From Acidimicrobiia bacterium (GTDB taxonomy: Bacteria > Actinomycetota > Acidimicrobiia > Spongiisociales > JAHEDJ01), in the NCBI GenBank assembly GCA_029210695.1, contig JARGFH010000027.1:1-48768 (forward strand): DNA of 48,768 nt, in the 5' to 3' direction. The notes below the pieces were generated by a model. The model searched no databases, was not told the DNA's origin, and saw only the letters and a program-made list of their open reading frames with translations. Shown here piece after piece: positions 6,392-26,453 of the stretch (positions within the stretch are counted from its first letter, which is position 1; every line of letters starts with the position of its first letter). The position numbers and the translations under genes are program-made.

Positions 6392-7381
6392 ATGCACATT
6401 CCCGATGGGTTTATCAACGGTGTGACGTCGCTGGGGGCCGGTGTCGTTGCAGTGTCGGGACTGGGGGCCAGCCTTCGCCGGGCCGGGAAGGAGCTTCAGG
6501 ATCGTCAGATCCCCCTGGCCGGGCTCATTGCGGCCTTTGTTTTCGTTCTCCAGATGCTCAACTTCCCCGTCGTCGCCGGGATGAGCGGACACCTCCTTGG
6601 AGGTGCGCTGGCGGCCATTCTCATCGGTCCCTGGATGGGGATGGTCGTCGTGTCGGTGGTCGTGATCGTTCAGGCGTTGCTGTTTGCAGATGGAGGGATT
6701 TCGGCGCTCGGGCTCAACATCGTCAACATGGGGCTTCTGACGGTGCTGAGCGGCTGGCTGGCGTACCGGTTACTCATGGCGGTGCTGCCGAAGAAGGCAG
6801 GCTCAGTTCTTCTGGCGGGGTCGTTGGCGGCATGGTTCTCAGTGGTGGTCTCCTCTCTTGGATTCGTGGGGGAGTACGCAATTGGCGGCGCTGGGGGCGC
6901 TCCGTTGTCGACGGTGCTGGCGGCGATGTCGGGGACCCATTCGCTCATCGGGATTGGTGAGGGCTTGATCACCGCCGGCGTGCTCGGCTCGGTCCTGGCA
7001 GTCCGGCCCGATCTCGTGCACGGAGCGCGGCTCTTCGGTATCCGGCACGCCGAAAACGCCGAGCTGAGCCGGCGGGCGGTCGGCGCCTTCATCGCAGGGG
7101 GAGTAGCCGTGGCGATCCTTCTGGTGACCGTGGTTGCGCCACGGGCTTCCAGCGATCCAGATGGTCTGGAACGAGTGGCCATCGATCAGGGATTTGCGGA
7201 AACAGCCACAGAACAACCGCTCGGTGACACGCCGCTTTCGGAGTACAGGCTGGTCGGCGTCGAAGATGAGCAGCTCGGCACCGTCGTAGCCGGGCTCATC
7301 GGCCTTGGGGTCACGTTCGTTGCCGGTGTCGGTCTCGTTCTGCTGGCGAGGCGAAGCCGGGGTCGTGTCGATAGCCGATGA
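6392..7381 (+). CDS. cbiM: ECF Ni/Co transporter S component, CbiM fused to a CbiN/PDGLE-like domain
   Basis: A 329-residue membrane protein. It starts M-H-I-P-D-G-F, the CbiM/NikM signature whose N-terminal amine and His2 coordinate the metal, and has about six hydrophobic segments in the first 220 residues, including N-F-P-V-V-A-G-M-S-G-H-L-L-G-G. The C-terminal part holds a further membrane helix, S-S-D-P-D-G-L-E-R-V-A (the PDGLE motif) and a final helix, so the CbiN/NikN-like component is fused on. Such proteins capture Ni2+ or Co2+ for an energy-coupling-factor transporter. The Nur box in front argues for nickel. It overlaps the next gene by 4 bp (ATGA). Confidence 0.92.
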   Translation: MHIPDGFINGVTSLGAGVVAVSGLGASLRRAGKELQDRQIPLAGLIAAFVFVLQMLNFPVVAGMSGHLLGGALAAILIGPWMGMVVVSVVVIVQALLFADGGISALGLNIVNMGLLTVLSGWLAYRLLMAVLPKKAGSVLLAGSLAAWFSVVVSSLGFVGEYAIGGAGGAPLSTVLAAMSGTHSLIGIGEGLITAGVLGSVLAVRPDLVHGARLFGIRHAENAELSRRAVGAFIAGGVAVAILLVTVVAPRASSDPDGLERVAIDQGFAETATEQPLGDTPLSEYRLVGVEDEQLGTVVAGLIGLGVTFVAGVGLVLLARRSRGRVDSR

Positions 7382-8139
7382 GCGGGACGCACACCCACGC
7401 GCTCTTCGTTCATGGGCACAGTCACCTGCACCGACTTCCTGCCTCGACCAAACTCGGTGCACTCGGTCTCTTTGTGCTGGCCGTCGTCGTTACACCGCGG
7501 GAGGCGTTCTGGGCGTTCGGCGTTCATGCCGGGTTGATCCTGAGCGCCATGTGGTTGGCAGGGTTGAAACCTAGATTCGTGGCAAAACGCCTGGTCATAG
7601 AGGTCCCATTCGTGCTGTTTGCCGTGTTTCTCCCCTTTGTCGGCGGAGGCGACCAGTTGGACATCATGGGACTGTCGCTGTCCATCGAGGGCCTTTGGGC
7701 AGGCTGGAACATCGTTGCCAAGGGAACTCTCGGCCTGGCTGCATCCATCGTGTTGACCGCCACCACGACGGTCCCCGACCTCCTTTCCGGTCTCGAGCGG
7801 CTCCGGGTACCCCGGCTCATCACCTCGATCGCCGGGTTCATGGTGCGATACCTCGATGTCATCGCAGGGGAGATGCACCGGATGCGGCTGGCAATGCTGT
7901 CGCGCGGCCACGACCCGCGCTGGATCTGGCAAGCGAGGGCGTATGCGACCTCGGCCGGTGCCTTGTTCATTCGTTCGTATGAGCGAGGCGAGCGGGTCTA
8001 CTACGCGATGACCGCCCGTGGGTTCGCCGGTCAAATTCCTACTTTCGACACCGAGCGTGCCACCGGGACCGACTGGCTGGGTGCCCTCCTCCTGCCTGCC
8101 GTCGCCTGGACTGCAACCCTGGTGGCGTTGTTCGCATGA
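7378..8139 (+). CDS. cbiQ: ECF Ni/Co transporter T component (CbiQ/NikQ)
   Basis: A 253-residue transmembrane coupling protein. Hydrophobic segments lie around residues 25-50, 65-90 and 110-135 and at the C terminus. The cytoplasmic coupling helices carry the family motifs A-M-L-S-R-G-H-D and A-M-T-A-R-G-F (the two A-x-R-G-type motifs that contact the ATPases). Its first 22 residues are unusually His-rich (T-H-T-H, H-G-H-S-H-L-H), which could bind metal at the membrane face. It overlaps cbiM and cbiO by 4 bp each, so the three genes should be translationally coupled. Confidence 0.92.
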   Translation: MSGTHTHALFVHGHSHLHRLPASTKLGALGLFVLAVVVTPREAFWAFGVHAGLILSAMWLAGLKPRFVAKRLVIEVPFVLFAVFLPFVGGGDQLDIMGLSLSIEGLWAGWNIVAKGTLGLAASIVLTATTTVPDLLSGLERLRVPRLITSIAGFMVRYLDVIAGEMHRMRLAMLSRGHDPRWIWQARAYATSAGALFIRSYERGERVYYAMTARGFAGQIPTFDTERATGTDWLGALLLPAVAWTATLVALFA

Positions 8140-8879
8140 GTGTCCCTGCGCTCGAAGTCGTCGACCTCAACTACCACTATCCAGATGGGACCGAGGTGCT
8201 CCGCAGTGTCGGGTTCCACATCCATCCGGGGGAGCGGGTTGCGTTGCTCGGCCCCAACGGAGCGGGCAAGACAACCCTGGTCTTTCATCTGAACGGCATC
8301 TTCCGGCCAGACTCAGGATCCGTGACGGTGGCCGGTTTGCCCCTCGATGACGAGCACGTCAAGGAAGTCAGGAGACGGGTCGGTATCGTCTTCCAGGACC
8401 CCGACGACCAACTCTTCATGCCGACCGTTCGCCAGGATGTCGCCTTCGGTCCGGCGAACTACGGAGTTGAAGGGGAGGAATTGCAGACCAGGGTGAATGA
8501 TGCTCTCTCGGCAGTCGGAATGCTCGACGTGGCAGGTCGACCGCCTCATCATCTCAGCGTCGGTCAACGCCGTCGGGTGGCGGTTGCGACGGTGCTGGCC
8601 ATGCAGCCGGAGATCGTGGTGCTGGACGAACCATCTTCGAATCTCGATCCCGCCTCCCGGCGAGAGCTCGCCAACATCCTCACCTCGCTGGACATCACCA
8701 TGCTGATGGTGACGCACGACCTGCCCTACGCACTCGAGTTGTGCCCGCGCTCCCTGGTCATGAACGATGGCAGGATCATCGCGGACGGGTCGACCCGTCA
8801 GATCCTCTCCAACCGGGAGCTGATGAAGGCAAACCGACTCGAGCTTCCTCTCGGTTTCGACCCGAATTTCGCTCTCTGA
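8136..8879 (+). CDS. cbiO: ECF Ni/Co transporter ATPase (CbiO/NikO)
   Basis: A 247-residue ABC ATPase that powers the transporter. Walker A is G-P-N-G-A-G-K-T-T, the Q-loop is F-Q-D-P-D-D-Q-L-F, the signature is [10 protein letters not shown], Walker B is V-V-L-D-E-P-S-S with the catalytic Glu, and the switch His is in M-V-T-H-D-L. The F-Q-D-P-D-D-Q-L-F segment is typical of ECF ATPases. Only one ATPase is present, as in other Ni/Co ECF systems, so it would act as a homodimer. Last gene of the Nur-controlled unit; no terminator-like hairpin was found immediately after it. Confidence 0.93.
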
Positions 8880-9601: not shown

Positions 9602-10504
9602 ATGGCTCCCGTCGTCGAAGTCGATCACCTGTCGAAGAGCTACGGCAGCTTTGTTGCGATCGAGGATGTCAGTTTCTCCGTTGAAGAAGGTGAGATCTTC
9701 GGGATTCTCGGACCGAACGGAGCCGGGAAGACGACCACGGTTGAGTGCCTTCAGGGGCTTCGGAAGGCCGACGGTGGTGTGGTACGGGTTCTGGGTCACG
9801 ACCCCCGGCACGAAGCATCACAGCTGCGGAGAAGGATTGGTTCGCAACTCCAGGAGTCGGCACTTCCCGACCGGATGAAGGTTTGGGAAGCGCTCGATTT
9901 GTTCTCGTCGCTCATTCCCCACGGACCGCCCTGGGAGGCGGTTCTGGAGCAATGGGACCTGTCGGAGAAGCGCGACGCGAAGTTCGGGAGTCTGTCGGGA
10001 GGCCAGCAGCAGCGCCTGTTCATAGCCTTGGCAGTGGTCAACGCTCCAGAGCTGGTGTTTCTGGATGAGATGACGACCGGCCTCGATCCAACCTCGCGTC
10101 GAGCGACCTGGGACCTCATCCGGCAGATCCGCGAGAACGGTTCGACCGTTGTACTCGTCACCCATTTCATGGACGAAGCTGAGAACCTATGTGATCGAAT
10201 CGCCGTCGTAGACGACAAGCGCGTCGTAGCGTTGAACACTCCCGAGGGGCTCATCCAGGACTTTGCGGGCGATTCAGAGGTCACGTTCTCCACGGATGTC
10301 GATGATCTGAGCTACCTCTTGCGTTTGGAGGAGGTCGACCGAGTCGAAAAAAAAGGTCGACGGGCTACCGTCACCGGGAAGGGGGCGCTGCTGGCGAGGG
10401 TCGCCGCCGAGCTGGTCGGGAATGGGATTGTTCCGCCGGATCTCGAGGTCAAGCGAGCGAGCCTCGAGGATGTGTTCCTCACGATCACGGGCCAGGAACG
10501 CTGA
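9602..10504 (+). CDS. ABC-2 type exporter, ATP-binding protein
   Basis: A 300-residue ABC ATPase of the drug/antibiotic exporter (DRA-like) class. Walker A is [10 protein letters not shown], the Q-loop is S-Q-L-Q-E-S-A, the signature is L-S-G-G-Q-Q-Q-R-L, Walker B is L-V-F-L-D-E-M-T-T-G-L-D-P and the switch His is in V-T-H-F-M-D-E-A. A C-terminal extension of about 85 residues after the ATPase core is usual for this class. It partners with the permease that starts 1 bp after its stop. The substrate cannot be told. Confidence 0.93.
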   Translation: MAPVVEVDHLSKSYGSFVAIEDVSFSVEEGEIFGILGPNGAGKTTTVECLQGLRKADGGVVRVLGHDPRHEASQLRRRIGSQLQESALPDRMKVWEALDLFSSLIPHGPPWEAVLEQWDLSEKRDAKFGSLSGGQQQRLFIALAVVNAPELVFLDEMTTGLDPTSRRATWDLIRQIRENGSTVVLVTHFMDEAENLCDRIAVVDDKRVVALNTPEGLIQDFAGDSEVTFSTDVDDLSYLLRLEEVDRVEKKGRRATVTGKGALLARVAAELVGNGIVPPDLEVKRASLEDVFLTITGQER

Positions 10505-11302: not shown

Positions 11303-12433
11303 CTACTCGTCTCCCGACAATTCCGTGAGGATCTCGTTGGTGTGCTGGCCGAGTGTCGGTGCCGGCCGTTTCGAGTTACCGGCTCTGAGTGGCCCCTGGA
11401 CGACGCGATACTTGCCGTCCGACGTTTCGACCTCACCCACCATCCCGGTCTCCTTGACGTAGGGCATGGCGATTGCCTGGAGCACGGTATTGAGCGGTCC
11501 GTGGGGCACCCCGGAGACGCTCAGGCGCGCTAGCGCCTCTTCCGTCGAAAAGCGTGCCACGGCCGCCTCAACCGCTGCGTCTACCTCCTCCCGGGCGTCG
11601 GTGCGCTGCGGGTTCGTGCGGAAGCGGTCGTCTCCGGCGAGATGCTCGAGACCGATCGCATTGCAGAGGAGCGGCCAGAATTTGTCGCCGATGACCGCGA
11701 TGACGACCCAGCCGTCGCGCGTGGCAAACGCGCGGTACGGCACGATGTTGTGGTGTCCGGATCCGACCGGTGCAGGATCAACTCCTGTTCCCATGGCCGA
11801 CGTTGCCATGTAGGCCAGGAACGACATGGCCGAATCGAGTAGTGGGACCTCGACGTGGCGTCCCCGGCCGTCGCGCAGGCGCCCGGCATAGGCGGCGACT
11901 CCGCCGAGTGCCGCCCATAATCCGGCCGCCAGGTCGCTGATCGCTACGCCGGCCCGGACCGGTGCTCCACCTTCTTCGCCGGTGATGGACATGATGCCGC
12001 TCTCAGCCTGGGCGATGAGATCGAGTGATCCATCGGCGGCGCGGGAACTGTTTCTGGCATATCCCGAGATTGTCACGATTACGAGGCGTGGGTGGCGAGT
12101 CAGCAGGAGGTCGGGTTCGAGACCGAGTTTCTTGACTGCCGCAGGCCGGTAGTTCTCGAGCAAGATGTCGGCCGTCTCCAGTAGGGCATGGAGAGCCTCG
12201 GTTCCGGCTTCCGTGGTCAAGTCGAGCACGATGCCGCGCTTGCCGGTGTTGAGCGACGAGAAGTAGAGCGATCGGCCGTCGACGAACGGGCCGATACCAC
12301 GGGCCATGTCACCTTCGGGAGGTTCGACCTTGATCACGTCGGCGCCCATCTCGGCGAGCACCTGGCCTGCGTATGGTCCGGCCAGGACCCTGGTCAGATC
12401 GATGACCCTGACCCCGTCGAGCAAGCCGCTCAC
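11303..12433 (-). CDS. Class III (CaiB/BaiF) CoA-transferase
   Basis: A 376-residue class III CoA-transferase, which moves CoA between carboxylic acids. The N terminus shows V-I-D-L-T-R-V-L-A-G-P-Y and G-A-D-V-I-K-V-E-P-P-E-G-D; N-T-G-K-R-G-I follows. Asp167 in A-G-V-A-I-S-D-L-A-A-G sits where the catalytic aspartate of formyl-CoA transferase lies. It is the last gene of a four-gene unit (CitE-like, Mcd-like, MmgE/PrpD, CoA-transferase) with 4-bp overlaps. From context I infer activation of a C5 dicarboxylate such as methylsuccinate, mesaconate or itaconate, probably with succinyl-CoA as donor. The exact substrate is not shown by sequence. Confidence 0.88.
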   Translation of the reverse strand: MSGLLDGVRVIDLTRVLAGPYAGQVLAEMGADVIKVEPPEGDMARGIGPFVDGRSLYFSSLNTGKRGIVLDLTTEAGTEALHALLETADILLENYRPAAVKKLGLEPDLLLTRHPRLVIVTISGYARNSSRAADGSLDLIAQAESGIMSITGEEGGAPVRAGVAISDLAAGLWAALGGVAAYAGRLRDGRGRHVEVPLLDSAMSFLAYMATSAMGTGVDPAPVGSGHHNIVPYRAFATRDGWVVIAVIGDKFWPLLCNAIGLEHLAGDDRFRTNPQRTDAREEVDAAVEAAVARFSTEEALARLSVSGVPHGPLNTVLQAIAMPYVKETGMVGEVETSDGKYRVVQGPLRAGNSKRPAPTLGQHTNEILTELSGDE

Positions 12434-13572
12434 TCGCCCACCACCAACCGGAGGACTTCAGTGGCGGGGAGACGAGGATCATCGAGGATTCCAATGAGAC
12501 GATCGCCGGACAGCGACCGCAGCTTCCAATCCAGTTGCTCGACCGTCATCGGGTGAAGTGGCGATCCGAGTGCGGCGTCGATTTCAATCGAGTCGGAATC
12601 CCACTTCAGAACGGCAGACGACTCAGGCAGTTGCTCGTCGAGTTCCACCCTGATCCGGGTGGCGAGCGTGCGGGCGGCCTCGTCCACTCCGGCGAATGCC
12701 CTCACGTCCGGCGGGCCGTACAACCACCCGAAGGCGGTCGTGTAGGGAATGGAGAACTTGGCCTCCAGGCCTGTGGCGACGTCATCGAGGGGGGCAGCCT
12801 GCCGCGACCGGGGATGAACCACCACCGTGATCGAACCGGCTGAGTTGGCGTCTTGGGAGGCAGACGCCCGGATCGCTGCCTCGATCGCCGCGTGGGTCTG
12901 CAGGCAACACGGAAAGGCCTTGATCCAGTTCTCCTCGATGGCTGGATCATCAGGATCCGGTTCGGCCCATCGGGCGCCGTAGGCGGATTCATACCCGTCG
13001 CGAACGGCTTCGCTCGTGGTGGCGCCGTTGGCGGCGAACCCCGCCGCCTGAACACCCTGGGAGGCGGCCATTCCCACCTGGAGGCTCTTGCCGTCGGTGC
13101 CGAACGCAGTGCGTAGCCCTCCGGCGCCGAGCACGGCCAGGAGTTGGGCATTGGTCGTTTTTTCCGCGTCGAGGCCGAGAAGATGGGCGGCGGCCGTGGC
13201 CGCGCCGACTGTTCCTGTGATCGCGGTCGGGTGCCAGCCGCGCTCATACAGCATCGGGTGGCCGGCCCTGGCAAGTGCGGCCATTGCTTCGAAACCGGCG
13301 GCATAGGCGGCCAGCATCGAACCGACCGAGCTTCCGATATGCGCTCCGAGCACTAGTGCGGCAGGAGCGACCGGTGCACTGAGGTGGGAGAGTCCCGGGG
13401 CGTACGTGTCGTCGTAGTCGAGGACATGTCCCGCCACGCCCAGCCGGATCGTCCGCTCGAGTAGGGAGTCGTCGATCGGGGCCACCGCGTGGACGGCCGG
13501 TTCGTGTCGGCCGGCGAACGCGCACGCCATCCAGTCGAGGAACGCCTGCCGGTATCCGGGATGGTCGGTCAT
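12430..13572 (-). CDS. MmgE/PrpD family protein
   Basis: A 380-residue MmgE/PrpD-fold protein. The superfamily includes 2-methylcitrate dehydratase and cis-aconitate decarboxylase. Visible are V-L-D-Y-D-D-T near residue 52, G-H-P-M-L-Y-E-R-G-W-H-P-T-A with G-T-V-G-A-A-T-A-A-A-H-L-L-G-L-D, and K-S-L-Q-V-G-M-A-A. Family members are usually 440-500 residues, so this one is on the short side. Within a cluster that handles mesaconyl- and citramalyl-CoA, formation or isomerisation of an unsaturated C5/C6 acid such as itaconate is a reasonable guess, but it is only that. Overlaps both neighbours by 4 bp. Confidence 0.85.
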   Translation of the reverse strand: MTDHPGYRQAFLDWMACAFAGRHEPAVHAVAPIDDSLLERTIRLGVAGHVLDYDDTYAPGLSHLSAPVAPAALVLGAHIGSSVGSMLAAYAAGFEAMAALARAGHPMLYERGWHPTAITGTVGAATAAAHLLGLDAEKTTNAQLLAVLGAGGLRTAFGTDGKSLQVGMAASQGVQAAGFAANGATTSEAVRDGYESAYGARWAEPDPDDPAIEENWIKAFPCCLQTHAAIEAAIRASASQDANSAGSITVVVHPRSRQAAPLDDVATGLEAKFSIPYTTAFGWLYGPPDVRAFAGVDEAARTLATRIRVELDEQLPESSAVLKWDSDSIEIDAALGSPLHPMTVEQLDWKLRSLSGDRLIGILDDPRLPATEVLRLVVGE

Positions 13573-15194
13573 TTGTTCCTCGCGGCGGTCTCGAGCAGGC
13601 CCTTGCCGATCACCCGCAGTGCCAGAACCTCTTCGGTGCCCTCGAAGATCGACAACACCCGTGCGTCCACGAAGAGCCTGCTGATCGGGTACTCCTCGGC
13701 GTAACCGTACCCGCCGTGGAGTTGCATGGCGTCACGAGTGATCTCCTCAGCAGCCCGGGAGGCCAGCGCCTTGGCCATGGCTGCTTCGATCTGGCCCTCG
13801 CCTTCTGAGAGCAGCCTGGCCGCCTGGTAGGTGAACTGCCGGTTGGCCTGGATGCGGGCAGCCATCCGGGCGAGAGTATTGGCGGTCAGCTCGAATTCGA
13901 GAAGGGGGCGGCCGAAGACCCGTCGGGTTCTGCAATAGGCGAGCGCCTCATCGAAGGCGGCCTGCATTACTCCCAGCGCCCGGGCGGCCGTCTGAAGGCG
14001 TCCGGAGGCAAAGGCCCCCATCTGCAGGTAGAAGCCCCTTCCCAGCCCCGGCTCTCCGCCGATGAGCGCATCGAACGGCACCAGGTAGTCATCGAAAGTC
14101 AACTCGAAGCTGTGGAGTCCCCGATAGCCGATCGTGTCGATCGCCCGACCCCGCAGGGAGCCGCCGCCCGGTTGTTCGATGGCGAACTCGTGTCCGGCGA
14201 ACGGAGGTTTCTCGACTACGAACAGCGAGAGGCCCCTGGCTCCAGCGGATGAATCTGGATTGGTTCTGGCCAGAAGCATCAGCAGTTCGGCGCGGCCGGC
14301 GAAGGTCGCCCACATCTTGGCCCCATTGAGGACGAACTGATCGCCGTCCGGCCGGGCGGACATTCGCAAGGAGGCGACGTCGGAGCCGATATCCGGCTCG
14401 GTGACCGACACCGCCACCATCTGGGTTCCGGCGGCAATCCGCGGTAGCCAGGTCATCTTCTGCCCGTCGGTCCCACCTTCGAGCAGCGCAGATACCAGGA
14501 TCTCGGGCCTGGTGAGCAGCGACCCTGCCATCAGCGATCCCCGGGAGAGTTCTTCGGTGGCCACAGCCATCGAGAGCAGCCCGGGTGCGTCCGGAACCTG
14601 AAAGCCCCCGTGGTCGGTGGGAATCGACATGCCGAACGCGCCCATTGCCGCCATGCCATTGATCAACTCCTCAGGTACGTCGAGATTGTGGCGGTGCACG
14701 CCTTCGGCGTGGGGAGCCACTTGTTCACGCGTGAATCGTTTGAAGGTCTCGGCCACCAGGGCAATGTCCTCGTCGAGGTGTTGGGGTCCGGTATTCGATT
14801 CCTCAAAGGAGGCGTTGAGCTTTCCGATGACGCCGGGATCAGATCCGGCCACGAGCACACGGTCGCATGGCTCGCCGCGCAGGTCATCGTCGATCCCGAG
14901 GTCCATGCGTCGCCCGTCGACCCTCGCCCGGGCCGAGCGAAGCAGATCGGCCACTGCGATACGCCCGATCTCTAACTCGGACTCTCCGTATTCGGAGTAG
15001 TCGATCATCACTCTGCTCATCGCGGTCTCGGCCGCCAGGAAGGCGAGGTGGTAAACGGCTTCCTGATGTTGATCCAGCATCTCCGTCGAGATCCTGCCGT
15101 CGCGACGCGTCACCGAGGCAAGGTGAGCGGCCGCTGAGTCGACCAGGTCCTGCATCCGTTCGACGGTCCGGCGGGCGTCCTCCTGCCAGCTCAT
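13569..15194 (-). CDS. Acyl-CoA dehydrogenase, (2S)-methylsuccinyl-CoA dehydrogenase-like
   Basis: A 541-residue acyl-CoA dehydrogenase with an extra N-terminal helical domain of about 150 residues before the canonical fold. This size and layout match (2S)-methylsuccinyl-CoA dehydrogenase (Mcd) of the ethylmalonyl-CoA pathway, which forms mesaconyl-C1-CoA. The dehydrogenase part has V-S-V-T-E-P-D-I-G-S-D-V-A-S-L, L-N-G-A-K-M-W, G-R-P-L-L-E-F-E-L-T-A-N-T-L-A, Q-L-H-G-G-Y-G-Y and a terminal I-F-E-G-T-E-E-V with the catalytic-type Glu. The neighbours (Mct-like, Meh-like and a citramalyl-CoA lyase-like enzyme) consume mesaconyl-C1-CoA, which supports the call. It overlaps both flanking genes by 4 bp. 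Another branched dicarboxylyl-CoA substrate remains possible. Confidence 0.8.
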   Translation of the reverse strand: MSWQEDARRTVERMQDLVDSAAAHLASVTRRDGRISTEMLDQHQEAVYHLAFLAAETAMSRVMIDYSEYGESELEIGRIAVADLLRSARARVDGRRMDLGIDDDLRGEPCDRVLVAGSDPGVIGKLNASFEESNTGPQHLDEDIALVAETFKRFTREQVAPHAEGVHRHNLDVPEELINGMAAMGAFGMSIPTDHGGFQVPDAPGLLSMAVATEELSRGSLMAGSLLTRPEILVSALLEGGTDGQKMTWLPRIAAGTQMVAVSVTEPDIGSDVASLRMSARPDGDQFVLNGAKMWATFAGRAELLMLLARTNPDSSAGARGLSLFVVEKPPFAGHEFAIEQPGGGSLRGRAIDTIGYRGLHSFELTFDDYLVPFDALIGGEPGLGRGFYLQMGAFASGRLQTAARALGVMQAAFDEALAYCRTRRVFGRPLLEFELTANTLARMAARIQANRQFTYQAARLLSEGEGQIEAAMAKALASRAAEEITRDAMQLHGGYGYAEEYPISRLFVDARVLSIFEGTEEVLALRVIGKGLLETAARNK

Positions 15195-16084
15195 TCGGCG
15201 GTGTCCGTGCGGGACTTGTCCAACACCCGGCGAGCCAGTCGTACGACCGCTTCGTCAACCATGTGTCCTTCGTCATCGGTGACGGCCCCCCGACCTTCGG
15301 CGAGTGCCGCGTCGTACAAAGCAACCAGCTTGCGGGCTCTAGCCACGGCACCCGGTGTAACGCCGAAGACCTCGTTGTAAACGGGAACCTGGACGGGGTG
15401 GATGGCGGGCCGGCTCCCGAAGCCGAGGGAGGCAAGCTCCTGTGCCTCGTTTCGCAGTGTTTCCAGGTTCGTGAAGTTGGGGGAAACCGGGCCGAGCGGC
15501 GCCTCCAGCCCCAGTGCCGCGGAAGCGACCACAACCTGCATGCGAAGCGGCAGCAACGCCGCCGAATTGGCGGGGTCGATGCCGAGTTCGGCGCTCAAAT
15601 CGAGTTCGCCGATCATCAACTGACTGACCCTCCGGGCGGCACCGAGCTCGCCGACTCCGAGCATCCCCGCCGCCGTCTCAATGATGGGCAGCAGCCGGAT
15701 CGAGCCAGCGGGCAGCCCCTTGGCGATTTCAGCGTCATCAAGGAGATTGGCGGCGTGTTCGAGTTCCGTGCGAGTGGAAACCTTGGGGATCATCACACCG
15801 GTCACACGGGCGTTGGGCACCGCCAGGATCTCCGCCCCGAATGAATCGCCCGGGTGATTGAGACGAACCCAGATATCCGGGACGGGACCGGCGAGGCCGG
15901 CCAGCCAGGAGCTAACCGTTTCTCGTGCCTGTTGCTTCGCCGACGGCGCCACCGCATCCTCGAGATCGATTATCAACGCGTCGGCGCCACGTTTGGTGGC
16001 CTTGGCGAGCATGTCGGGCCGATCACCCGGGACGAACAGGAAGCTTCGAGCTGCCACGATTCGGGGTCCCTCTCCTTCGTTCAT
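15191..16084 (-). CDS. CitE-like CoA-ester lyase, probable citramalyl-CoA lyase
   Basis: A 297-residue member of the HpcH/HpaI-CitE family (Mg2+-dependent malyl/citramalyl-CoA lyases). It shows R-S-F-L-F-V-P-G-D-R-P-D, I-I-D-L-E-D-A-V-A-P, L-L-P-I-I-E-T-A-A-G-M-L (metal-ligand Glu), M-I-G-E-L-D-L-S-A-E-L-G (metal-ligand Asp) and P-A-I-H-P-V-Q-V. The expected reaction here is cleavage of (S)-citramalyl-CoA to pyruvate and acetyl-CoA, because a mesaconyl-C4-CoA hydratase-like gene lies opposite. I chose ATG 16084, with AAGAAGG 9 nt upstream, over an upstream in-frame ATG that would run into the divergent mct. First gene of the minus-strand unit. Confidence 0.87.
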   Translation of the reverse strand: MNEGEGPRIVAARSFLFVPGDRPDMLAKATKRGADALIIDLEDAVAPSAKQQARETVSSWLAGLAGPVPDIWVRLNHPGDSFGAEILAVPNARVTGVMIPKVSTRTELEHAANLLDDAEIAKGLPAGSIRLLPIIETAAGMLGVGELGAARRVSQLMIGELDLSAELGIDPANSAALLPLRMQVVVASAALGLEAPLGPVSPNFTNLETLRNEAQELASLGFGSRPAIHPVQVPVYNEVFGVTPGAVARARKLVALYDAALAEGRGAVTDDEGHMVDEAVVRLARRVLDKSRTDTAE

Positions 16085-16172
16085 TTCGATGTGCCTTCTT
16101 TGTAGCACCTCGAGATCAGGCCGGTCGAGCTGCCCTCGATACAATCCACCACAGTCCGGGAGAGGAGCGTCG
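16085..16172. promoter_or_regulatory. Divergent promoter region of the C5-CoA cluster
   Basis: This 88-bp gap separates the starts of the citramalyl-CoA lyase-like gene (minus) and the mct-like gene (plus) and must hold both promoters. TACAAT at 16140-16145 could be the -10 of the plus unit. On the minus strand TCGACC and TACAAA, 18 bp apart, could serve the other unit. No clear operator palindrome was seen. Confidence 0.4.
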
Positions 16173-17387
16173 GTGGACTCAGGTCTATTGAGCGGCATGC
16201 GAGTCGTTGAAGGGGCGGCCTTTGTGGCCGGGCCGCTCGGCGGTATGACCCTTGCTCAGTTGGGAGCCGACGTCATTCGATTCGACCCGATCGGCGGAGG
16301 GCTCGACTACCGACGCTGGCCGGTCACCGCAGATGGCAACAGCCTGTACTGGGCAGGGCTCAACAAAGGCAAGCGGTCGATAGCCCTTGATCTCCGGTCG
16401 GAAGAAGGCCGGGAGCTGGCCGTGGCCCTCATCACTGCACCGGGTCCGGACGCCGGGATCTTTTTGACCAACTATCCGGCGGGTGGCTGGATCGACTACG
16501 AACACCTGGTGACGCTCCGTCCTGATCTCATCATGTGCCACATTCTCGGCAATTCCGATGGGTCCACCGCGGTCGACTACACGGTCAACGCCGCGGTTGG
16601 TTACCCGGCGATCACGGGACCACAGGAGTTGGACGGGGTGGTCAACTCAGTCCTTCCTGCCTGGGATCTCATCACGGGAACGACCGCGACTACCGGGATC
16701 CTGGCGGCAGAGCGGCACCGTTATCGCACAGGAGAAGGCCGACTGTTGAAGCTCCCGCTATTCGACGTTGCCCTGGCAACAATCGGTCATCTTGGCCAAA
16801 TTGGTGAGGTTCAGGTGAACGGCGAGGATCGTGCGAGGTACGGCAACTACCTATTCGGCGCCTTCGGCCGTGACTTCGTGACCGCCGACGGCCGTCGGGT
16901 GATGGTGGTGGCGATCACCCCCAGACAGTTCCTCGGCATGATCGAAGCGGCCGGCCTCGAGACGGAGATGGCAGCGATCGAAGCGGATCTGGGTCTTGAA
17001 CTGAGGAGCGATGGAGATCTCTTCACTGCAAGAGAGGCCATCGCCGGAATCCTCGAGGTCTGGATAGCGACGCAATCTCTGGCCGAGCTGGCCGCGATAT
17101 TCGACGCTCACCGGGTGCTGTGGGGCCCATATCAGACGATGCGGGAGCTACTCGAGAACGACTCCCGTGCGTCGACCGACAATCCAATGCTCCACGAGGT
17201 TGACCAACCTGGTATCGGTCAATACCTGATGCCGGGATCCCCCATCGACACCGGCCCCGATCGCTTGCCTCCCCAGCCGGCTCCGCGGCTCGGGCAGCAC
17301 ACCGATGAGATCTTGAGTGAAATCCTCGAGCTGAGCGGGTCGGAGATTGGACGACTCCACGACACGAAGGTGGTGGCAAGTGCCTGA
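16173..17387 (+). CDS. mct: 2-methylfumaryl-CoA isomerase (mesaconyl-CoA C1-C4 CoA transferase), Mct-like
   Basis: A 404-residue class III CoA-transferase that looks like Mct of the 3-hydroxypropionate bicycle, the intramolecular transferase moving CoA from C1 to C4 of mesaconate. Stretches I recognise as Mct-like include R-V-V-E-G-A-A-F-V-A-G-P-L-G-G-M, D-P-I-G-G-G-L-D-Y-R-R-W-P, W-A-G-L-N-K-G-K-R-S-I-A, V-D-Y-T-V-N, L-P-A-W-D (Asp aligned with the catalytic site), G-N-Y-L-F-G-A-F-G-R-D-F and S-T-D-N-P-M. The start is GTG 16173, preceded 5 nt away by AGAGGAG. The following meh-like gene overlaps it by 8 bp. This is one of the more specific calls in the cluster, made from memory of the family. 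Confidence 0.87.
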   Translation: MDSGLLSGMRVVEGAAFVAGPLGGMTLAQLGADVIRFDPIGGGLDYRRWPVTADGNSLYWAGLNKGKRSIALDLRSEEGRELAVALITAPGPDAGIFLTNYPAGGWIDYEHLVTLRPDLIMCHILGNSDGSTAVDYTVNAAVGYPAITGPQELDGVVNSVLPAWDLITGTTATTGILAAERHRYRTGEGRLLKLPLFDVALATIGHLGQIGEVQVNGEDRARYGNYLFGAFGRDFVTADGRRVMVVAITPRQFLGMIEAAGLETEMAAIEADLGLELRSDGDLFTAREAIAGILEVWIATQSLAELAAIFDAHRVLWGPYQTMRELLENDSRASTDNPMLHEVDQPGIGQYLMPGSPIDTGPDRLPPQPAPRLGQHTDEILSEILELSGSEIGRLHDTKVVASA

Positions 17388-18216
17388 ACTCGACGATTGG
17401 ATCGGCCGGAGTGAGGTGAAGGAGGATCTCATCACTGCCTGGCCGGTTGAGGCGCTGCGGGCAACCTTCGATCTTCCCGACCAGCCGTTGGTTCCGGGTG
17501 ATCCCATTCCGCCGATGTGGCACTGGTTGTTCTTCCTTTCGACGACCCGGCGGTCAGAGTTGGGTCCCGATGGTCACGCGGAGCGCGGTGGGTTTCTCCC
17601 GCCCGTCGAACTGCCGCGCAGGATGTTCGCAGGGGGTCGCACCGAGTTTCTGGCACCTCTGCGAATCGGTCAAACGGCTCGCCGGACCGGCACGATTACC
17701 GGCATCCAGACGAAGGAAGGGCGCAGCGGTCGCCTGGTGTTCGTCACCGCCCGCTTCGAGGTGGTGACGGATGACGGCCCGGCCATCGTTGAGGAGCAGG
17801 ATCTGGTCTACCGAGAAGCCGCCACAGGGAGCCAGGCTCCTGCCCCGGGAGTTGATCCGATTCCCGATGCGGCCTGGATGCAAACCATCTCGCCAGACCC
17901 CACCATGTTGTTCAGGTTTTCGGCGCTCACGTTCAATGGTCATCGCATCCACTACGACGATCCATACGTGACCGAGTTCGAGGGGTATCCGGGTTTGATC
18001 GTGCACGGGCCGATGACTGCCCTGTGGCTGCTCGGTCTCAGCGTTGCCAACGACCATCGACCGATATCCCGCTTCTCCTTCCGTGGACGGTCGCCGCTGT
18101 TCTGCGACGGCCCTGTGAGTCTGCGCGGTGGCCTCACCAAAGACGGAGCCGCCGAGCTGGCTGCATGGTCCCACGACAACCGCCTGGCTATGACCGCCGA
18201 AGTGGAGTTCGGGTAG
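17380..18216 (+). CDS. meh: Mesaconyl-C4-CoA hydratase-like (FAS1-like/MaoC hot-dog) protein
   Basis: A 278-residue two-part hot-dog protein. The N-terminal half has P-P-M-W-H-W-L-F-F and G-G-R-T-E-F-L-A-P-L-R-I-G-Q, like the FAS1-like dehydratase domain. The C-terminal half carries R-F-S-A-L-T-F-N-G-H-R-I-H-Y-D and Y-P-G-L-I-V-H-G-P, the MaoC-type hydratase motif with catalytic Asp/His. This architecture fits mesaconyl-C4-CoA hydratase (Meh) and itaconyl-CoA hydratases, which give citramalyl-CoA. GTG 17380 starts inside the 3' end of mct (8-bp overlap), so the two should be co-translated. Whether the natural substrate is mesaconyl-C4-CoA or itaconyl-CoA cannot be decided from sequence; the adjacent Mct-like gene favours the former. 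Confidence 0.82.
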   Translation: MPELDDWIGRSEVKEDLITAWPVEALRATFDLPDQPLVPGDPIPPMWHWLFFLSTTRRSELGPDGHAERGGFLPPVELPRRMFAGGRTEFLAPLRIGQTARRTGTITGIQTKEGRSGRLVFVTARFEVVTDDGPAIVEEQDLVYREAATGSQAPAPGVDPIPDAAWMQTISPDPTMLFRFSALTFNGHRIHYDDPYVTEFEGYPGLIVHGPMTALWLLGLSVANDHRPISRFSFRGRSPLFCDGPVSLRGGLTKDGAAELAAWSHDNRLAMTAEVEFG

Positions 18217-22258: not shown

Positions 22259-24001
22259 ATGAGACGATCCATGAAACTCATTTTGCTTTTCGTGGTTTTC
22301 GCCGTGATCGCGGTTGCGTGCAGCAGCGAGACAACCGAGACAACGGAAGCCACGACCGATACCACGACACCTACCGCGACGGAGACCACTACGACTCCGA
22401 CGACAGAACCGACGACCGCAACGACGGAACCTGCAGGGCCGAGGACCATCATCATCGGCACGACCGATGCAGTCTCGAGTCTCGACAGCGCGGACGCCTA
22501 CGCGACCGCCGACTGGGAGCTGATCAAGGCCTTCAACGAGCCGCTGCTGCGGTTCCAGCCGGGAAGCAACTCCGTGCTGGAGCCGGGCATTGCCAGCCTT
22601 CCGGTGGCGAGCGAGGACGGTTTGAGCTGGGAAGTGACGCTGCGTGACGACCTCGTCTTTGGCGATGGGCTCGAGCTCACCGTCGACATGGCGGTCGAAC
22701 AGCTCAACCGTTTGATGGACTCCGATCTCCAGGCGAGTGCTCCGAACCAGGTGGGCAACACGCTGGCGATTCCCTATGTGGAGAGCATCGAGGCTGTCGA
22801 CGACAGGACCATCAGGTTCAATCTGCTGGGACCGGCCGGGTTCTTCCCGCAAATCCTGGCGGGCGCGCCGTATACGATCGCCCATCCGGACTTCTTTGCC
22901 CTGGATGAGATGAACCTGCTGCCGGAGGCGCCGATCTACGGGCTCGGTCCGTGGATCATCACCGAGAACACGGTGGCCGAGCAGACCGTGCTCGAGCCGA
23001 ATCCGTACTACACAGGTGCCTATCCGGCCAAGGTGGATCGGATCATCGTCCAGCGTTTTGCCAATCCGAGCGCGATGGCCGATGCCGTCCGCGAGGGCGA
23101 GATCGACGTCGCCTGGCGCATCCTCGGCTCCCAGGCCGCCGATGAGCTCAAGTCCGTTGATGGTCTGACCGTGGAGACGATTCCTCAGGCGCCGATCCGG
23201 TACCTGATCGTCAACCATGCCGACGGCTTCGTAACGTCAGATCCGCTCGTTCGCCAGGCCTTGGCGGCGGCCATCGACCGCGATGAGCTCTCCGACGTAG
23301 TGTTCGGCGGCGCGGTGACTCCACTGCTGTCGCCGGTGCCGCCAGGGTTCCTTGGTGCCAACGAGGCATTTGAAGATGCCTTTCAAGCGCCAAACATCGA
23401 CCTGGCGGTTGACCTGCTCACGCAGGCAGGCTATTCGGAGACCAACAAGCTGCAACTCGACCTTGGCTATCCGCCCGAGCACTACGGTGTTACCACCGCC
23501 GATGGCGTGCTGCTGGTCGCCCAACAATGGGAGGCCACCGGCCTGATCGATGTCAATGAGATCGCTCAGGAGTGGAGCACCTACGTATCGAACTGCACGA
23601 ATGGGGACACCTATCCGGTCTGCGTGCTCGGTTGGTTCTTCGACTTCCCGGATGCCGAGAACTACCTGCAACCGTTCATCGAGGGTGACGGACTCGGGAC
23701 GATGGTCCTGTGCCCGAACGATTCGTGCGGCGATGCCACCACGACGGGCATTGATCCGCTTCTCGGGCAACTGCTGCTCGACCAGCGGGCCGAGACGGAT
23801 TTGGATGCGCGTGCTGCAATCATCGAGCAGTTGCAGGATGTGTACGCCGATGAGGTCGTCACGATCCCGCTGTGGCTGGAGCCGGAGTTCATCATCTACC
23901 GGGACGGGATCGTCGGGGACGGCTCCCTGCCAAATCCGCAGACACTCAACATCGGACCCGATTTCGAGTTCGTTTACTCGGTGTTGGACATAACCGACTA
24001 A
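22259..24001 (+). CDS. Peptide ABC transporter substrate-binding lipoprotein (family 5)
   Basis: A 580-residue extracytoplasmic solute-binding protein of the DppA/OppA type. The signal ends in A-V-A-C-S-S (lipobox), and a Thr-rich linker runs to about residue 60. The mature domain begins I-I-I-G-T-T-D-A-V-S-S-L-D-S-A and contains E-V-T-L-R-D-D-L-V-F-G-D-G-L, D-P-L-V-R-Q-A-L-A-A-A-I-D-R-D and a closing I-P-L-W-L segment. It binds an oligopeptide or a similar ligand and hands it to the permeases encoded next. An AGAGGAAGGG ribosome-binding site precedes ATG 22259. A strong terminator follows, which would make this component the most abundant of the system. Confidence 0.93.
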   Translation: MRRSMKLILLFVVFAVIAVACSSETTETTEATTDTTTPTATETTTTPTTEPTTATTEPAGPRTIIIGTTDAVSSLDSADAYATADWELIKAFNEPLLRFQPGSNSVLEPGIASLPVASEDGLSWEVTLRDDLVFGDGLELTVDMAVEQLNRLMDSDLQASAPNQVGNTLAIPYVESIEAVDDRTIRFNLLGPAGFFPQILAGAPYTIAHPDFFALDEMNLLPEAPIYGLGPWIITENTVAEQTVLEPNPYYTGAYPAKVDRIIVQRFANPSAMADAVREGEIDVAWRILGSQAADELKSVDGLTVETIPQAPIRYLIVNHADGFVTSDPLVRQALAAAIDRDELSDVVFGGAVTPLLSPVPPGFLGANEAFEDAFQAPNIDLAVDLLTQAGYSETNKLQLDLGYPPEHYGVTTADGVLLVAQQWEATGLIDVNEIAQEWSTYVSNCTNGDTYPVCVLGWFFDFPDAENYLQPFIEGDGLGTMVLCPNDSCGDATTTGIDPLLGQLLLDQRAETDLDARAAIIEQLQDVYADEVVTIPLWLEPEFIIYRDGIVGDGSLPNPQTLNIGPDFEFVYSVLDITD

Positions 24002-24019
24002 TCAGGAATTGGCGAAGGA

Positions 24020-24057
24020 GAACTGGGAGTGGGCTTGGCCCGCTCCCAGTTCTTTTT
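24020..24057 (+). terminator. Intrinsic terminator inside the peptide-transporter operon
   Basis: A 15-bp stem (24020-24034 with 24038-24052, one G-U pair) closes a TTG loop and is followed at once by TTTTT. It lies 19 bp after the stop of the binding-protein gene and 28 bp before the permease start. It probably limits read-through so that the permease and ATPase genes are expressed less than the binding protein. Confidence 0.88.
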
Positions 24058-24084
24058 GGACGCGTCGACTAGCCTCGGGTTCCT

Positions 24085-25182
24085 GTGCACCCGTTGCTGA
24101 TCGTCTTCTTGGTCTTCGGCATCCCGGCCGGGTTGGCCCTGGCATGGGTGTTCTTGCGCGGCAGTGAGTCTTTGCGCCGCTACATCCTCACTCGAATCGC
24201 CCTGACCGTGCCTATGGTCATCATCCTCATCTCGGTCGTCTTCTTTGTGCTGCGGGTCATGCCGGGCGATGTGGTCTCTTCGACACTGGGCCCGAAGGCG
24301 AGTGACGCTGCCCGGGCAAACATCATGGAAGCGCTCGGTCTCGACGATCCGCTCATCGTCCAGTATTTTCGATTCCTCGGGGACGTCGTCACCTTCGATC
24401 TCGGTGACTCTTTCATCGGCGCCCGCCGTCCGATCGTCGACGAGCTGGGAGAGCGGCTCCCGGCCACCCTCGAGCTGATCATCCCGGCTGCGATCGTCGC
24501 CCTGGGAAGCGGACTCCTTCTCGGGACGTTCGCGGCCGTCCGCCGCAAGAAACCGGCCGACTACGGGCTACGCCTCTACAGCGTCATCGTGTATTCGATG
24601 CCAATCTTCTGGCTGGGACTGCTCTTGCGACTCGTCTTCAGCGTTTGGTTGGATTGGACACCTATCGCCGGTCGTATCGACGTGGTGACCAACACCACGC
24701 TCGAGCGAACCACGAACCTGCTCTTTGTCGATGCAATCCTGAGCGGCAATTGGGCGGCCCTCAGCAGCGTTCTTCGTCATATGATCCTGCCGGCTATGAC
24801 TCTGGGGTTGGTGCTGTCTGGCGTGTTCGTTCGTCTGACCCGGATCAACGTCATCGAGGCGCTGCAAGAGGACTACGTAGCGGCCGCCAGGGCACGCGGC
24901 ATTCGCGAGCGCGTCGTGACGTACAGCTATGCCCTCAAGAATGCCATGATCCCCGTGGTGACCGTGATCGGATTGCAGGTGGCGATCTTGCTCGCCGGGG
25001 CCGTGCTCACCGAGACCGTCTTCAACTGGCCGGGCATGGGCCGCTACCTAATTGAACGTATCAGCTCTCGCGACTTCCAGGCAGTCCAATCGACAGTGGC
25101 CGTGTTCGCCTTGTTCGTCGCGATGATCAGTCTGGCGGTGGACGTGATCTACTCAGTCCTCGACCCACGGGTGAAGTACTGA
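24085..25182 (+). CDS. dppB: Peptide ABC transporter permease, DppB type
   Basis: A 365-residue inner-membrane permease. It starts at GTG 24085 with an extra N-terminal hydrophobic segment (residues 2-25) before the usual first helix R-Y-I-L-T-R-I-A-L-T-V-P. The family motifs P-G-D-V, L-G-L-D-D-P-L, F-D-L-G-D-S and L-P-A-T-L-E-L are present, as is the EAA coupling loop D-Y-V-A-A-A-R-A-R-G-I-R-E-R. The C-terminal E-T-V-F-N-W-P-G-M-G motif is standard. Its stop overlaps the start of the next permease by 1 bp. Confidence 0.92.
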   Translation: MHPLLIVFLVFGIPAGLALAWVFLRGSESLRRYILTRIALTVPMVIILISVVFFVLRVMPGDVVSSTLGPKASDAARANIMEALGLDDPLIVQYFRFLGDVVTFDLGDSFIGARRPIVDELGERLPATLELIIPAAIVALGSGLLLGTFAAVRRKKPADYGLRLYSVIVYSMPIFWLGLLLRLVFSVWLDWTPIAGRIDVVTNTTLERTTNLLFVDAILSGNWAALSSVLRHMILPAMTLGLVLSGVFVRLTRINVIEALQEDYVAAARARGIRERVVTYSYALKNAMIPVVTVIGLQVAILLAGAVLTETVFNWPGMGRYLIERISSRDFQAVQSTVAVFALFVAMISLAVDVIYSVLDPRVKY

Positions 25183-26453
25183 TGGCTGCCGAGTTCGAGT
25201 CAGCTCCGGATCCCGGTCAGGTCGCCGATTGGGAGCTCGAACTCCAGAAAGTCGGCTTCGCCAGGCGCGTGCTCATGGCGCGCAAGTGGTACAAGACCGA
25301 CTGGTGGTTCGTCGCCATCTCAAGCGCCATGGTTGTTGCCTTCCTGATCGTCGCGGCCGTTCCCCAGTGGCTGGCAAGCCACGACCCTCTCGAACAGGTT
25401 GGCCCCCGCCTCCTGGCACCCGGCGAGCTCCCCGAACAGGAAATCCTCGTTGTACCGATCGGGGGTGCTTTTGCGGCTATCGCCGAGTTCGAACCGGGCG
25501 TGCGTACGCCTGTGGCGGTGGCCATCGATACCCCCTCGAGTGAGGCGGCTCGTGACGAGGCAGAGCGTGTCACCGCTGAGATAGCTGCAGCAGGTGGAGA
25601 AGGCCGGATCCGCCTGCAGATCGAGCGGTACGAGACTGCAGAAGAGGCGCTGGCCGGCGTTGAAGCAGGCGAAGCCGTGGCGGCTGTGATCTCCTCGAAG
25701 ACCTACGAGTCCATCGCGGCGGAATTCCCGGCGTTGCAGAACTCCGGAGCCGTGTCGAGTGCCGACCAAGACTCCACCAGCTTTCCACTCGGCACGAACC
25801 AGGTGGGTCAGGACGTGTTGAGTCGGCTCATCTGGGGTGCCCGGATCGCCATCATCATCGGGTTCTCAGCCTCTATCGCCTCTTTTGTCATCGGTGTCCC
25901 GCTCGGGTTGCTGGCCGGCTTCGCGGGAGGCAAGCTCGACCGGGCCATGACCCTGGTCATGGACAGCATCTACGCCTTCCCAGGGCTCATCCTCGCCATC
26001 GCCATCACCGCGGTTCTCGGCCCCAGCATCTTCAACATCATCGTGGCCATCGCCGTGCTCTACATTCCCACGTACTATCGGATCGTGCGGGGTCAGACCC
26101 TGCAATCGAAAGAGGAGCTGTACGTGGAGGCGGCTCGCAGCCTCGGTGCCAAATCGAAGGTGATCCTTACCCGCTACATCTTCCCCAATGTCATCCCCTC
26201 GGTGGCCGTGATCTTCTCGGTCAACGTCGCCGATGCCATTCTCACCGGAGCCGGCTTGTCATTTCTCGGGCTGGGCTTGCCGCCGTCTACTCCAGACTGG
26301 GGCATCGACCTCGCCCGCGGCCAGGAATTCATCCGATCTGCCTGGTGGCTCATCACCTTCCCCGGTCTGGCGGTCATGCTGATCGTCCTCGCCTTCACGA
26401 TGATGGGGGAGGGTCTCGTCGAGATCTTCAATCCGAAGTTGCGAGAGCGGTAG
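25182..26453 (+). CDS. dppC: Peptide ABC transporter permease, DppC type with extracytoplasmic insert
   Basis: A 423-residue permease, about 120 residues longer than usual DppC. After a cytoplasmic N terminus and TM1 (about 42-60) comes H-D-P-L, then an inserted region (about 80-198) before the normal F-P-L-G-T-N-Q-V-G-Q-D-V-L-S-R-L. The insert reads as a small alpha/beta domain (I-L-V-V-P-I-G-G, V-A-V-A-I-D-T-P-S-S-E, a long helix, then E-E-A-L-A-G-V-E-A-G-E-A-V-A-A-V-I) facing outward. It resembles the external domains of some ABC-2 permeases. The rest is canonical, with the coupling loop Y-V-E-A-A-R-S-L-G-A and a C-terminal L-S-F-L-G-L-G-L-P-P-S-T-P-D-W-G. The next gene starts directly after the stop. 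Confidence 0.9.
   Translation: MAAEFESAPDPGQVADWELELQKVGFARRVLMARKWYKTDWWFVAISSAMVVAFLIVAAVPQWLASHDPLEQVGPRLLAPGELPEQEILVVPIGGAFAAIAEFEPGVRTPVAVAIDTPSSEAARDEAERVTAEIAAAGGEGRIRLQIERYETAEEALAGVEAGEAVAAVISSKTYESIAAEFPALQNSGAVSSADQDSTSFPLGTNQVGQDVLSRLIWGARIAIIIGFSASIASFVIGVPLGLLAGFAGGKLDRAMTLVMDSIYAFPGLILAIAITAVLGPSIFNIIVAIAVLYIPTYYRIVRGQTLQSKEELYVEAARSLGAKSKVILTRYIFPNVIPSVAVIFSVNVADAILTGAGLSFLGLGLPPSTPDWGIDLARGQEFIRSAWWLITFPGLAVMLIVLAFTMMGEGLVEIFNPKLRER

Follow-up and report, generated by a model that had tools for sequence, protein, structure and literature searches.

Six intact, overlapping genes arranged in two divergent operons occupy positions 11303-18216 of the window, the 48,768-nucleotide stretch of DNA from an Acidimicrobiia bacterium that was analyzed here. 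The minus-strand operon comprises genes for a family III (CaiB/BaiF) CoA-transferase (11303-12433; PF02515, 384 bits), an MmgE/PrpD-family protein (12430-13572; PF03972/PF19305), a predicted methylsuccinyl-CoA dehydrogenase (Mcd; 13569-15194), and an HpcH/HpaI (CitE-like) lyase (15191-16084; PF03328). On the plus strand lie genes for an Mct-like CoA-transferase (16173-17387) and a predicted mesaconyl-C4-CoA hydratase/itaconyl-CoA hydratase (Meh/Ich; 17380-18216). Neighbors in the minus-strand operon overlap by 4 nt, the Mct and Meh genes overlap by 8 nt, and the two operons are separated, between their start codons, by an 88-bp divergent intergenic region (16085-16172) that presumably carries the promoters. 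Given these overlaps and the short divergent region, the cluster genes are probably co-expressed. The mechanically listed ORFs of Mct and the lyase were too long at their starts; the likely starts are GTG at 16173, behind GGGAGAGGAG, and ATG at 16084. No transporter or specific regulator was recognized beside the cluster. The same arrangement was found again in relatives, with 57-95% protein identity per gene, indicating that it did not arise by chance. An earlier note on this DNA had described a single divergent cluster with CoA-transferase, Mcd-, CitE-, Mct-, and Meh-like genes; all five are indeed full-length open frames, and the list is extended here by the MmgE/PrpD gene, which it had left out.

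The 541-aa Mcd-like protein matched (2S)-methylsuccinyl-CoA dehydrogenase 8ciw best among PDB entries (460 bits), followed by 6es9 (304 bits). It has the N-terminal extension of known Mcds, in which ~170 residues precede the ACAD core: the Pfam core starts at residue 143, and the alignment with 8ciw starts at residue 6. The signature described in PMC5798300, consisting of three substrate arginines and a catalytic glutamate (R252/R376/R421/E535), is present; R421 by itself is not diagnostic, since FadE3 has it too. Dehydrogenases of the C4 type, from P. aeruginosa, Variovorax, Burkholderia, and P. luteola, lack the arginine signature. The methyl pocket of the P. denitrificans enzyme (Ala285/Phe287) is replaced by Val/Val. 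Because 8ciw, itself named a methylsuccinyl-CoA dehydrogenase, has Ile/Ile at these positions, Ala285/Phe287 is a trait of Paracoccus-type enzymes rather than of the whole Mcd family. Phylogenetic analysis grouped the protein with 6es9 and 8ciw in one clade, apart from the C4 type and FadE3 (SH-aLRT 98). The best reading of these sequence features is a C1-type Mcd, predicted to act on (2S)-methylsuccinyl-C1-CoA.

TIGR04253 was by far the best model for the Mct-like protein, scoring 551 bits over its full length, under the equivalog cut-off of 725, and the best PDB matches were 8apq and 7xkg (532 and 530 bits). Of the substrate and catalytic residues reported in PMC9813914, the Asp165 nucleophile and the free-carboxyl binders Arg47 and Tyr136 are kept, as is N100; among the CoA 'cork' residues, R75 is kept and two are changed (F101Y and R104G). 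The protein fell within the clade of 8apq, and we file it by its sequence as a member of the Mct clade, without certified equivalog status. The earlier note had proposed phylogeny as a test of both enzymes, and in the trees the dehydrogenase branches among the Mcds and the isomerase among the Mcts.

The lyase grouped with citramalyl-CoA lyases and away from lyases linked to the ethylmalonyl-CoA pathway (SH-aLRT 99), which rules out a beta-methylmalyl-CoA lyase; its best NCBIfam model was RipC_Ccl, with a score below the cut-off. We predict that it is an (S)-citramalyl-CoA lyase (Ccl). Meh/Ich matched itaconyl-CoA hydratase 8khg best (245 bits) and is 46% identical to P. aeruginosa Ich. All seven residues of the mechanism proposed for methylsuccinate isomerase (Msi) and IDS epimerase (PMC12290011) are aligned in the PrpD protein (H49, D52, H63, Y109, H114, K162, and K218, corresponding to His88, Glu91, His102, Tyr148, His152, Lys202, and Lys266 of P. 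aeruginosa Msi), with Asp in place of Msi Glu91, as in IDS epimerase. Identity to P. aeruginosa Msi is only 25%, and the predicted role is that of a methylsuccinate epimerase. Its AlphaFold model was middling (pLDDT 63, pTM 0.70), and a Foldseek search with it gave significant matches to MmgE/PrpD-family folds only, which adds little. CaiB, with an aligned catalytic Asp, is predicted to fill the role of the itaconate/methylsuccinate CoA-transferase Ict. Its identity to the Ict proteins of P. aeruginosa, Variovorax, and Burkholderia is 32-36%, a low value that counts against this role. Ict makes C4 esters (PMC12290011), and an Mcd of the ethylmalonyl-CoA pathway type would not be expected to take C4 esters from an Ict-like enzyme directly.

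We propose, with a probability of roughly three in four, that the six genes form a catabolic cluster converting methylsuccinate, as well as itaconate, via C1-CoA esters to acetyl-CoA and pyruvate. Its core would be CaiB, Meh/Ich, and Ccl, a trio expected to degrade itaconate (or mesaconate) to acetyl-CoA and pyruvate; itaconate is the likely substrate of this core. The PrpD protein would interconvert (R)- and (S)-methylsuccinate, and CaiB would activate the acid, either making the C1 ester directly or making a C4 ester that Mct then isomerizes. Mcd would next oxidize (2S)-methylsuccinyl-C1-CoA to mesaconyl-C1-CoA, passing electrons to ETF. With a C1-type dehydrogenase, Mct would be required: it would shift CoA intramolecularly from C1 to C4, yielding mesaconyl-C4-CoA, which Meh would hydrate to (S)-citramalyl-CoA for cleavage by Ccl into acetyl-CoA and pyruvate. 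The chain from methylsuccinyl-C1-CoA through mesaconyl-C1-CoA, mesaconyl-C4-CoA, and citramalyl-CoA had in outline already been drawn in the earlier note and is still the best reading, in agreement with the Mcd and Mct clades; the degradative alternative offered there gains support and is sharpened to methylsuccinate by the PrpD gene and the known cluster (PMC12290011). Our analysis covered which genes are present, their families and clades, their active-site residues, and co-retention and co-loss in relatives; we infer the substrates, stereochemistry, CoA regiochemistry, and ETF coupling of the enzymes. Counting against the proposal are the low identities of CaiB to Ict and of the PrpD protein to Msi, the TIGR04253 and RipC scores under their curated cut-offs, the lack of a recognized transporter or specific regulator, and the gene content of two relatives, G148 and G343, described below.

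Patterns of retention and loss were compared among relatives, which, like the sister genome G098, are draft genomes, probably metagenome-assembled; gene calling around neighbors in high-GC loci gave mostly unrelated or false ORFs. At the same locus, G098 keeps CaiB, lyase, and hydratase, whereas PrpD, Mcd, and Mct are reduced to relics, that of Mct being a 58-codon ORF with residues 1-20 and 377-404. G098 is thus a natural deletion strain that has lost, through separate deletions, precisely the three genes predicted to serve methylsuccinate use, and the retained trio is a minimal itaconate set equivalent to Ict-Ich-Ccl. PrpD homologs occurred in seven of 395 genomes of the class, all seven among the nine with adjacent Mcd and Mct. 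G148 and G343, from one genus, keep Mcd, Mct, and PrpD, but of CaiB only relics remain; no lyase was found beside Mcd-Mct and no close hydratase was found in these two genomes, and the module may therefore feed something else there. On the Mcd tree, the Mcd-Mct neighborhood was gained or lost at least seven times, and a single clade of Mct-linked Mcds was rejected. Independent sets of Mcd, Mct, Meh, lyase, and CoA-transferase were found in Nocardia sp. BSTN01 and Paraburkholderia sp. D15, and the closest relatives of the 8ciw Mcd group in our analysis lie mostly beside Mct.

An endogenous origin of the substrate is a much less probable alternative. Mcd, Mct, Meh, and Ccl would then be a sink for methylsuccinyl-C1-CoA released by thiolysis of a 4-methyl-branched dicarboxyl-CoA, itself derived from methylaromatics via 4-methyl-3-oxoadipyl-CoA or from terpenoid or branched diacids, and PrpD and CaiB would only salvage leaked methylsuccinate. 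According to PMC6449761, which refers to Marin 2010, such thiolysis yields methylsuccinyl-CoA in methylcatechol degradation, and on chemical grounds the product is the C1 ester; Mcd-Mct pairs also occur within beta-oxidation-type clusters of Variovorax SRS16 and Sphingomonas, and protocatechuate and vanillate genes adjoin the cluster in G241. However, no thiolase, ECH, or HACD genes lie next to the cluster of the window, and the itaconate-type core trio persists alone in G098. Methylaromatic ortho-cleavage, hinted at by the pca and ligM neighbors in G241, is ruled out as a source here, no intradiol dioxygenase having been found in the genome of the window. That persistence of CaiB-Meh-lyase, a minimal Ict-Ich-Ccl set, would also fit degradation of itaconate or mesaconate only, with Mcd and Mct auxiliary or acting on other substrates, but we consider this most improbable given that the genes for Mcd, Mct, and PrpD are intact and conserved and are retained together in relatives.

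The earlier note had also raised a CO2-incorporating version, a hybrid acetyl-CoA assimilation in which methylsuccinyl-CoA would come from crotonyl-CoA carboxylation (Ccr, Ecm, and Epi) and yield pyruvate. This version fails in the genome of the window (97.85% complete), where searches found no Ccr (best score 96 bits against a cut-off of 378.55) and no mesaconyl-C1-CoA hydratase (Mch), and where isocitrate lyase is present; two MM-CoA mutase domains, Mcm or Ecm, were also found. In its favor, Ccr accompanies most other members of the Mcd clade (146 of 162 genomes) and is present in two of nine same-order genomes bearing the Mcd-Mct cluster; the remaining seven lack it. The carboxylating reading is already refuted for the genome of the window, unless Ccr is encoded in the ~2% that the assembly lacks, and its overall probability is very small; the cluster is not a CO2-fixing pathway there. 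In G086 and G241, the two cluster-bearing genomes with Ccr, the same genes might complete a natural route from acetyl-CoA and CO2 to pyruvate, with degradation alone in the genome of the window, although we regard this as very unlikely. That route would run from crotonyl-CoA through ethylmalonyl-CoA, methylsuccinyl-C1-CoA, mesaconyl-C1/C4-CoA, and citramalyl-CoA to pyruvate and acetyl-CoA and, if true, would be a new anaplerotic pathway.

For the degradative cluster proposed here, the closest known system is the itaconate-methylsuccinate cluster of Pseudomonas and Cupriavidus (Ict, Ich, Ccl, C4-Mcd, and Msi; PMC12290011, PMC9875883). Both have the same roles, namely a CoA-transferase, a hydratase (46-47% identical), a lyase (31-36%), an acyl-CoA dehydrogenase, and an MmgE/PrpD protein (25% identical to Msi), and both occur in three-gene and extended versions, in hosts from different phyla. 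They differ in the dehydrogenase: that of the window is non-orthologous to the C4-type PA0879 (29% identity over the core), which lacks the arginine signature and Glu535 and has no active-site signature in common with it. The window cluster adds Mct, whereas the pseudomonadal cluster, with its C4-type enzyme, needs none. By its sequences, the window cluster would function like the pseudomonadal one but is not a member of it. With the ethylmalonyl-CoA pathway (6es9, PMC5798300; 8ciw) it shares the Mcd clade, extension, and signature residues; however, the genome lacks Ccr and Mch, Mcd has V/V for A285/F287, and the Mcd product would go to Mct and citramalyl-CoA instead of methylmalyl-CoA. The Mct and Meh steps and citramalyl-CoA cleavage recall the second cycle of the 3-hydroxypropionate bicycle (Mct, Meh, and trifunctional lyase; PMC9813914, PMC9196870), except that mesaconyl-C1-CoA would come from Mcd, not Mch, and that the analysis gave no sign of autotrophy. 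ThnO/ThnP of naphthalene degradation (PMC11659651) likewise pair an acyl-CoA dehydrogenase with an intramolecular CoA transferase acting on dicarboxyl-CoA, but ThnP belongs to family I of the transferases, and its step precedes that of the dehydrogenase.

The known methylsuccinate pathway runs on C4-CoA esters, C1 esters having been described as leading nowhere in Cupriavidus necator, and 96% of the isomerases in that study came from Pseudomonadota (PMC12290011). The cluster is likely a second, independently assembled solution to methylsuccinate use, running via C1 esters and enabled by Mct, in a phylum for which such use was hardly known before. Parts known from two carbon-assimilation pathways, the dehydrogenase and the CoA-moving enzyme, would here be recombined for breakdown, a natural precedent for the enzyme chains of synthetic carbon pathways. 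For metagenome surveys, this cautions against taking Mct and Meh as a sign of the 3-hydroxypropionate bicycle. Mcd and Mct, including the 8ciw Mcd group, thus likely have a physiological role beyond acetate assimilation and CO2 fixation.

Six intact genes on two strands occupy positions 11303-18216 of the window, which lies in contig C27 of a draft genome (3.9 Mb, 97.85% complete). The minus-strand operon, transcribed from 16084 to 11303, encodes a lyase (15191-16084), an Mcd-like dehydrogenase (13569-15194), an MmgE/PrpD protein (12430-13572) and a family III CoA-transferase (11303-12433), with 4-nt overlaps between successive genes. The plus-strand pair encodes Mct (16173-17387) and Meh (17380-18216), which overlap by 8 nt. 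The genes named in the earlier note were all intact, but that note had missed PrpD. In our best model, the cluster serves catabolism of methylsuccinate, and also itaconate: the Mcd, of the ethylmalonyl-CoA pathway (EMC) type, would oxidize C1 esters, Mct would then shift CoA to C4, and the route would end in acetyl-CoA and pyruvate. In the known methylsuccinate system, by contrast, the dehydrogenase acts on C4 esters, and C1 esters are regarded as dead ends in C. necator (PMC12290011). Searches of open-licence papers found no report of a natural gene cluster of this C1 type. The window also carries cobalt ECF-type transporter genes (6392-8879; CbiM with a PDGLE domain, CbiQ and an ATPase) and an oligopeptide-type ABC transporter operon (22259-28578; a solute-binding protein, two permeases and two ATPases).

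Among solved structures, the dehydrogenase best matched 8ciw, a (2S)-methylsuccinyl-CoA dehydrogenase (460 bits), followed by the Paracoccus Mcd 6es9 (304 bits), with all ordinary acyl-CoA dehydrogenases scoring lower. It has the N-terminal extension and, by alignment, all of R252, R376, R421 and E535 (residues from PMC5798300); at the Ala285/Phe287 sites it has Val/Val, and 8ciw has Ile/Ile there. The C4-type dehydrogenases of Pseudomonas-type clusters are a different enzyme (29% identity), reading TQMVVTIEP or AQMVVTIEP at nine aligned positions where the window protein has SRVVRSTRE. Trees of 102 and 43 proteins bore out the proposed Mcd assignment, placing the protein inside the Mcd clade, in a subclade of eight that all adjoin Mct. 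A single clade of Mct-linked Mcds was rejected (p-AU 1e-73) and at least seven changes in linkage are needed on the Mcd tree, indicating that Mcd and Mct were brought together or separated several times.

Mct matched its C. aurantiacus and R. castenholzii counterparts at 532 and 530 bits and scored 551 on TIGR04253, under the equivalog cut-off of 725. D165, R47, Y136, N100 and R75 are conserved, with F101Y and R104G substitutions in the cork region (functional residues from PMC9813914). Meh shares 46% identity with the itaconyl-CoA hydratase of P. aeruginosa. The lyase groups with experimentally supported citramalyl-CoA lyases and most lyases adjoining Mct-Meh, divided (SH-aLRT 99) from most of those adjoining Mcd without Mct, presumably EMC lyases. 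PrpD is only 25% identical overall to P. aeruginosa Msi, the methylsuccinate isomerase, and has all the residues on which a two-base epimerase mechanism has been proposed (PMC12290011); it occurs in seven of 395 class genomes, all among the nine with Mcd adjoining Mct. The CoA-transferase (CaiB) is a generic family III protein, 32-36% identical to the Pseudomonas-type Ict and aligned with it at the catalytic Asp; we infer the substrate of CaiB.

Decayed loci were found in draft genomes of relatives. The G098 locus (same genus) is syntenic, with CaiB (85%), lyase (72%) and hydratase (79%) followed by the same hydrolase and two-component genes, and holds no intact Mct, Mcd or PrpD. DNA comparison revealed that a 58-codon ORF joining Mct residues 1-20 and 377-404 separates the lyase from the hydratase. 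The stretch from lyase to CaiB holds a remnant of the Mcd N-terminus (E 1e-9) and, after it, a short segment that weakly matches the C-terminus of PrpD. These relics indicate that the three predicted methylsuccinate-branch genes were lost by separate deletions that spared a minimal itaconate trio, a pattern in agreement with the three-gene versus five-gene split of Pseudomonas-type clusters (PMC12290011). CaiB relics occur in G148, G343 and G241, and a Meh relic in G086. Short relics in sister genomes lie at L229 11467-11640 (plus) and 10240-10491 (minus), L233 8739-8986 (minus), L232 2599-2694 (minus), L070 8495-8566 (plus) and L071 5041-5124 (minus). Some are nearly in-frame internal deletions keeping the original start, as in G098 Mct and in G148 CaiB (residues 1-41 fused to 278-324), perhaps preserving translational coupling. 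G148 and G343 retain intact Mcd, Mct and PrpD, with CaiB only as a relic, no Meh homologue in the genome beyond weak similarity, and no lyase adjoining Mcd-Mct (loci L067, L068 and L233). This gene content is the main observation that the model does not account for, as it leaves mesaconyl-CoA without an evident fate in these two genomes. Beyond the cluster in G241 (L071 11902-18190) come genes of the protocatechuate pathway (PcaD, PcaB, a CoA-transferase and protocatechuate 3,4-dioxygenase) and a vanillate O-demethylase, which suggests a link to aromatic degradation in that genome; no intradiol dioxygenase was found in the window's genome.

For the carboxylating route that it raised, the earlier note suggested looking for ccr and mch, among other genes; neither Ccr nor Mch was found in the window's 97.85% complete genome, and isocitrate lyase was. 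Class-wide, Mcd and Ccr occur together in 148 genomes. Ccr is present in only two of the nine genomes with adjacent Mcd-Mct (G086 and G241) versus 146 of the 162 other Mcd genomes (Fisher p ~1e-5, phylogeny ignored), indicating that the cluster is uncoupled from the EMC. Paraburkholderia sp. D15 has a comparable Mcd, Mct, Meh, lyase and CoA-transferase set with ETF genes, and Nocardia sp. BSTN01 (L158 7004-12888) carries Mct, lyase, Meh, Mcd and CoA-transferase in an independent arrangement. Mct-clade proteins occur in 32 more class genomes lacking a strong Mcd match (L046-L065, L074-L085), mostly not adjoining a recognizable Meh or lyase. Mct is no marker for the 3-hydroxypropionate bicycle.
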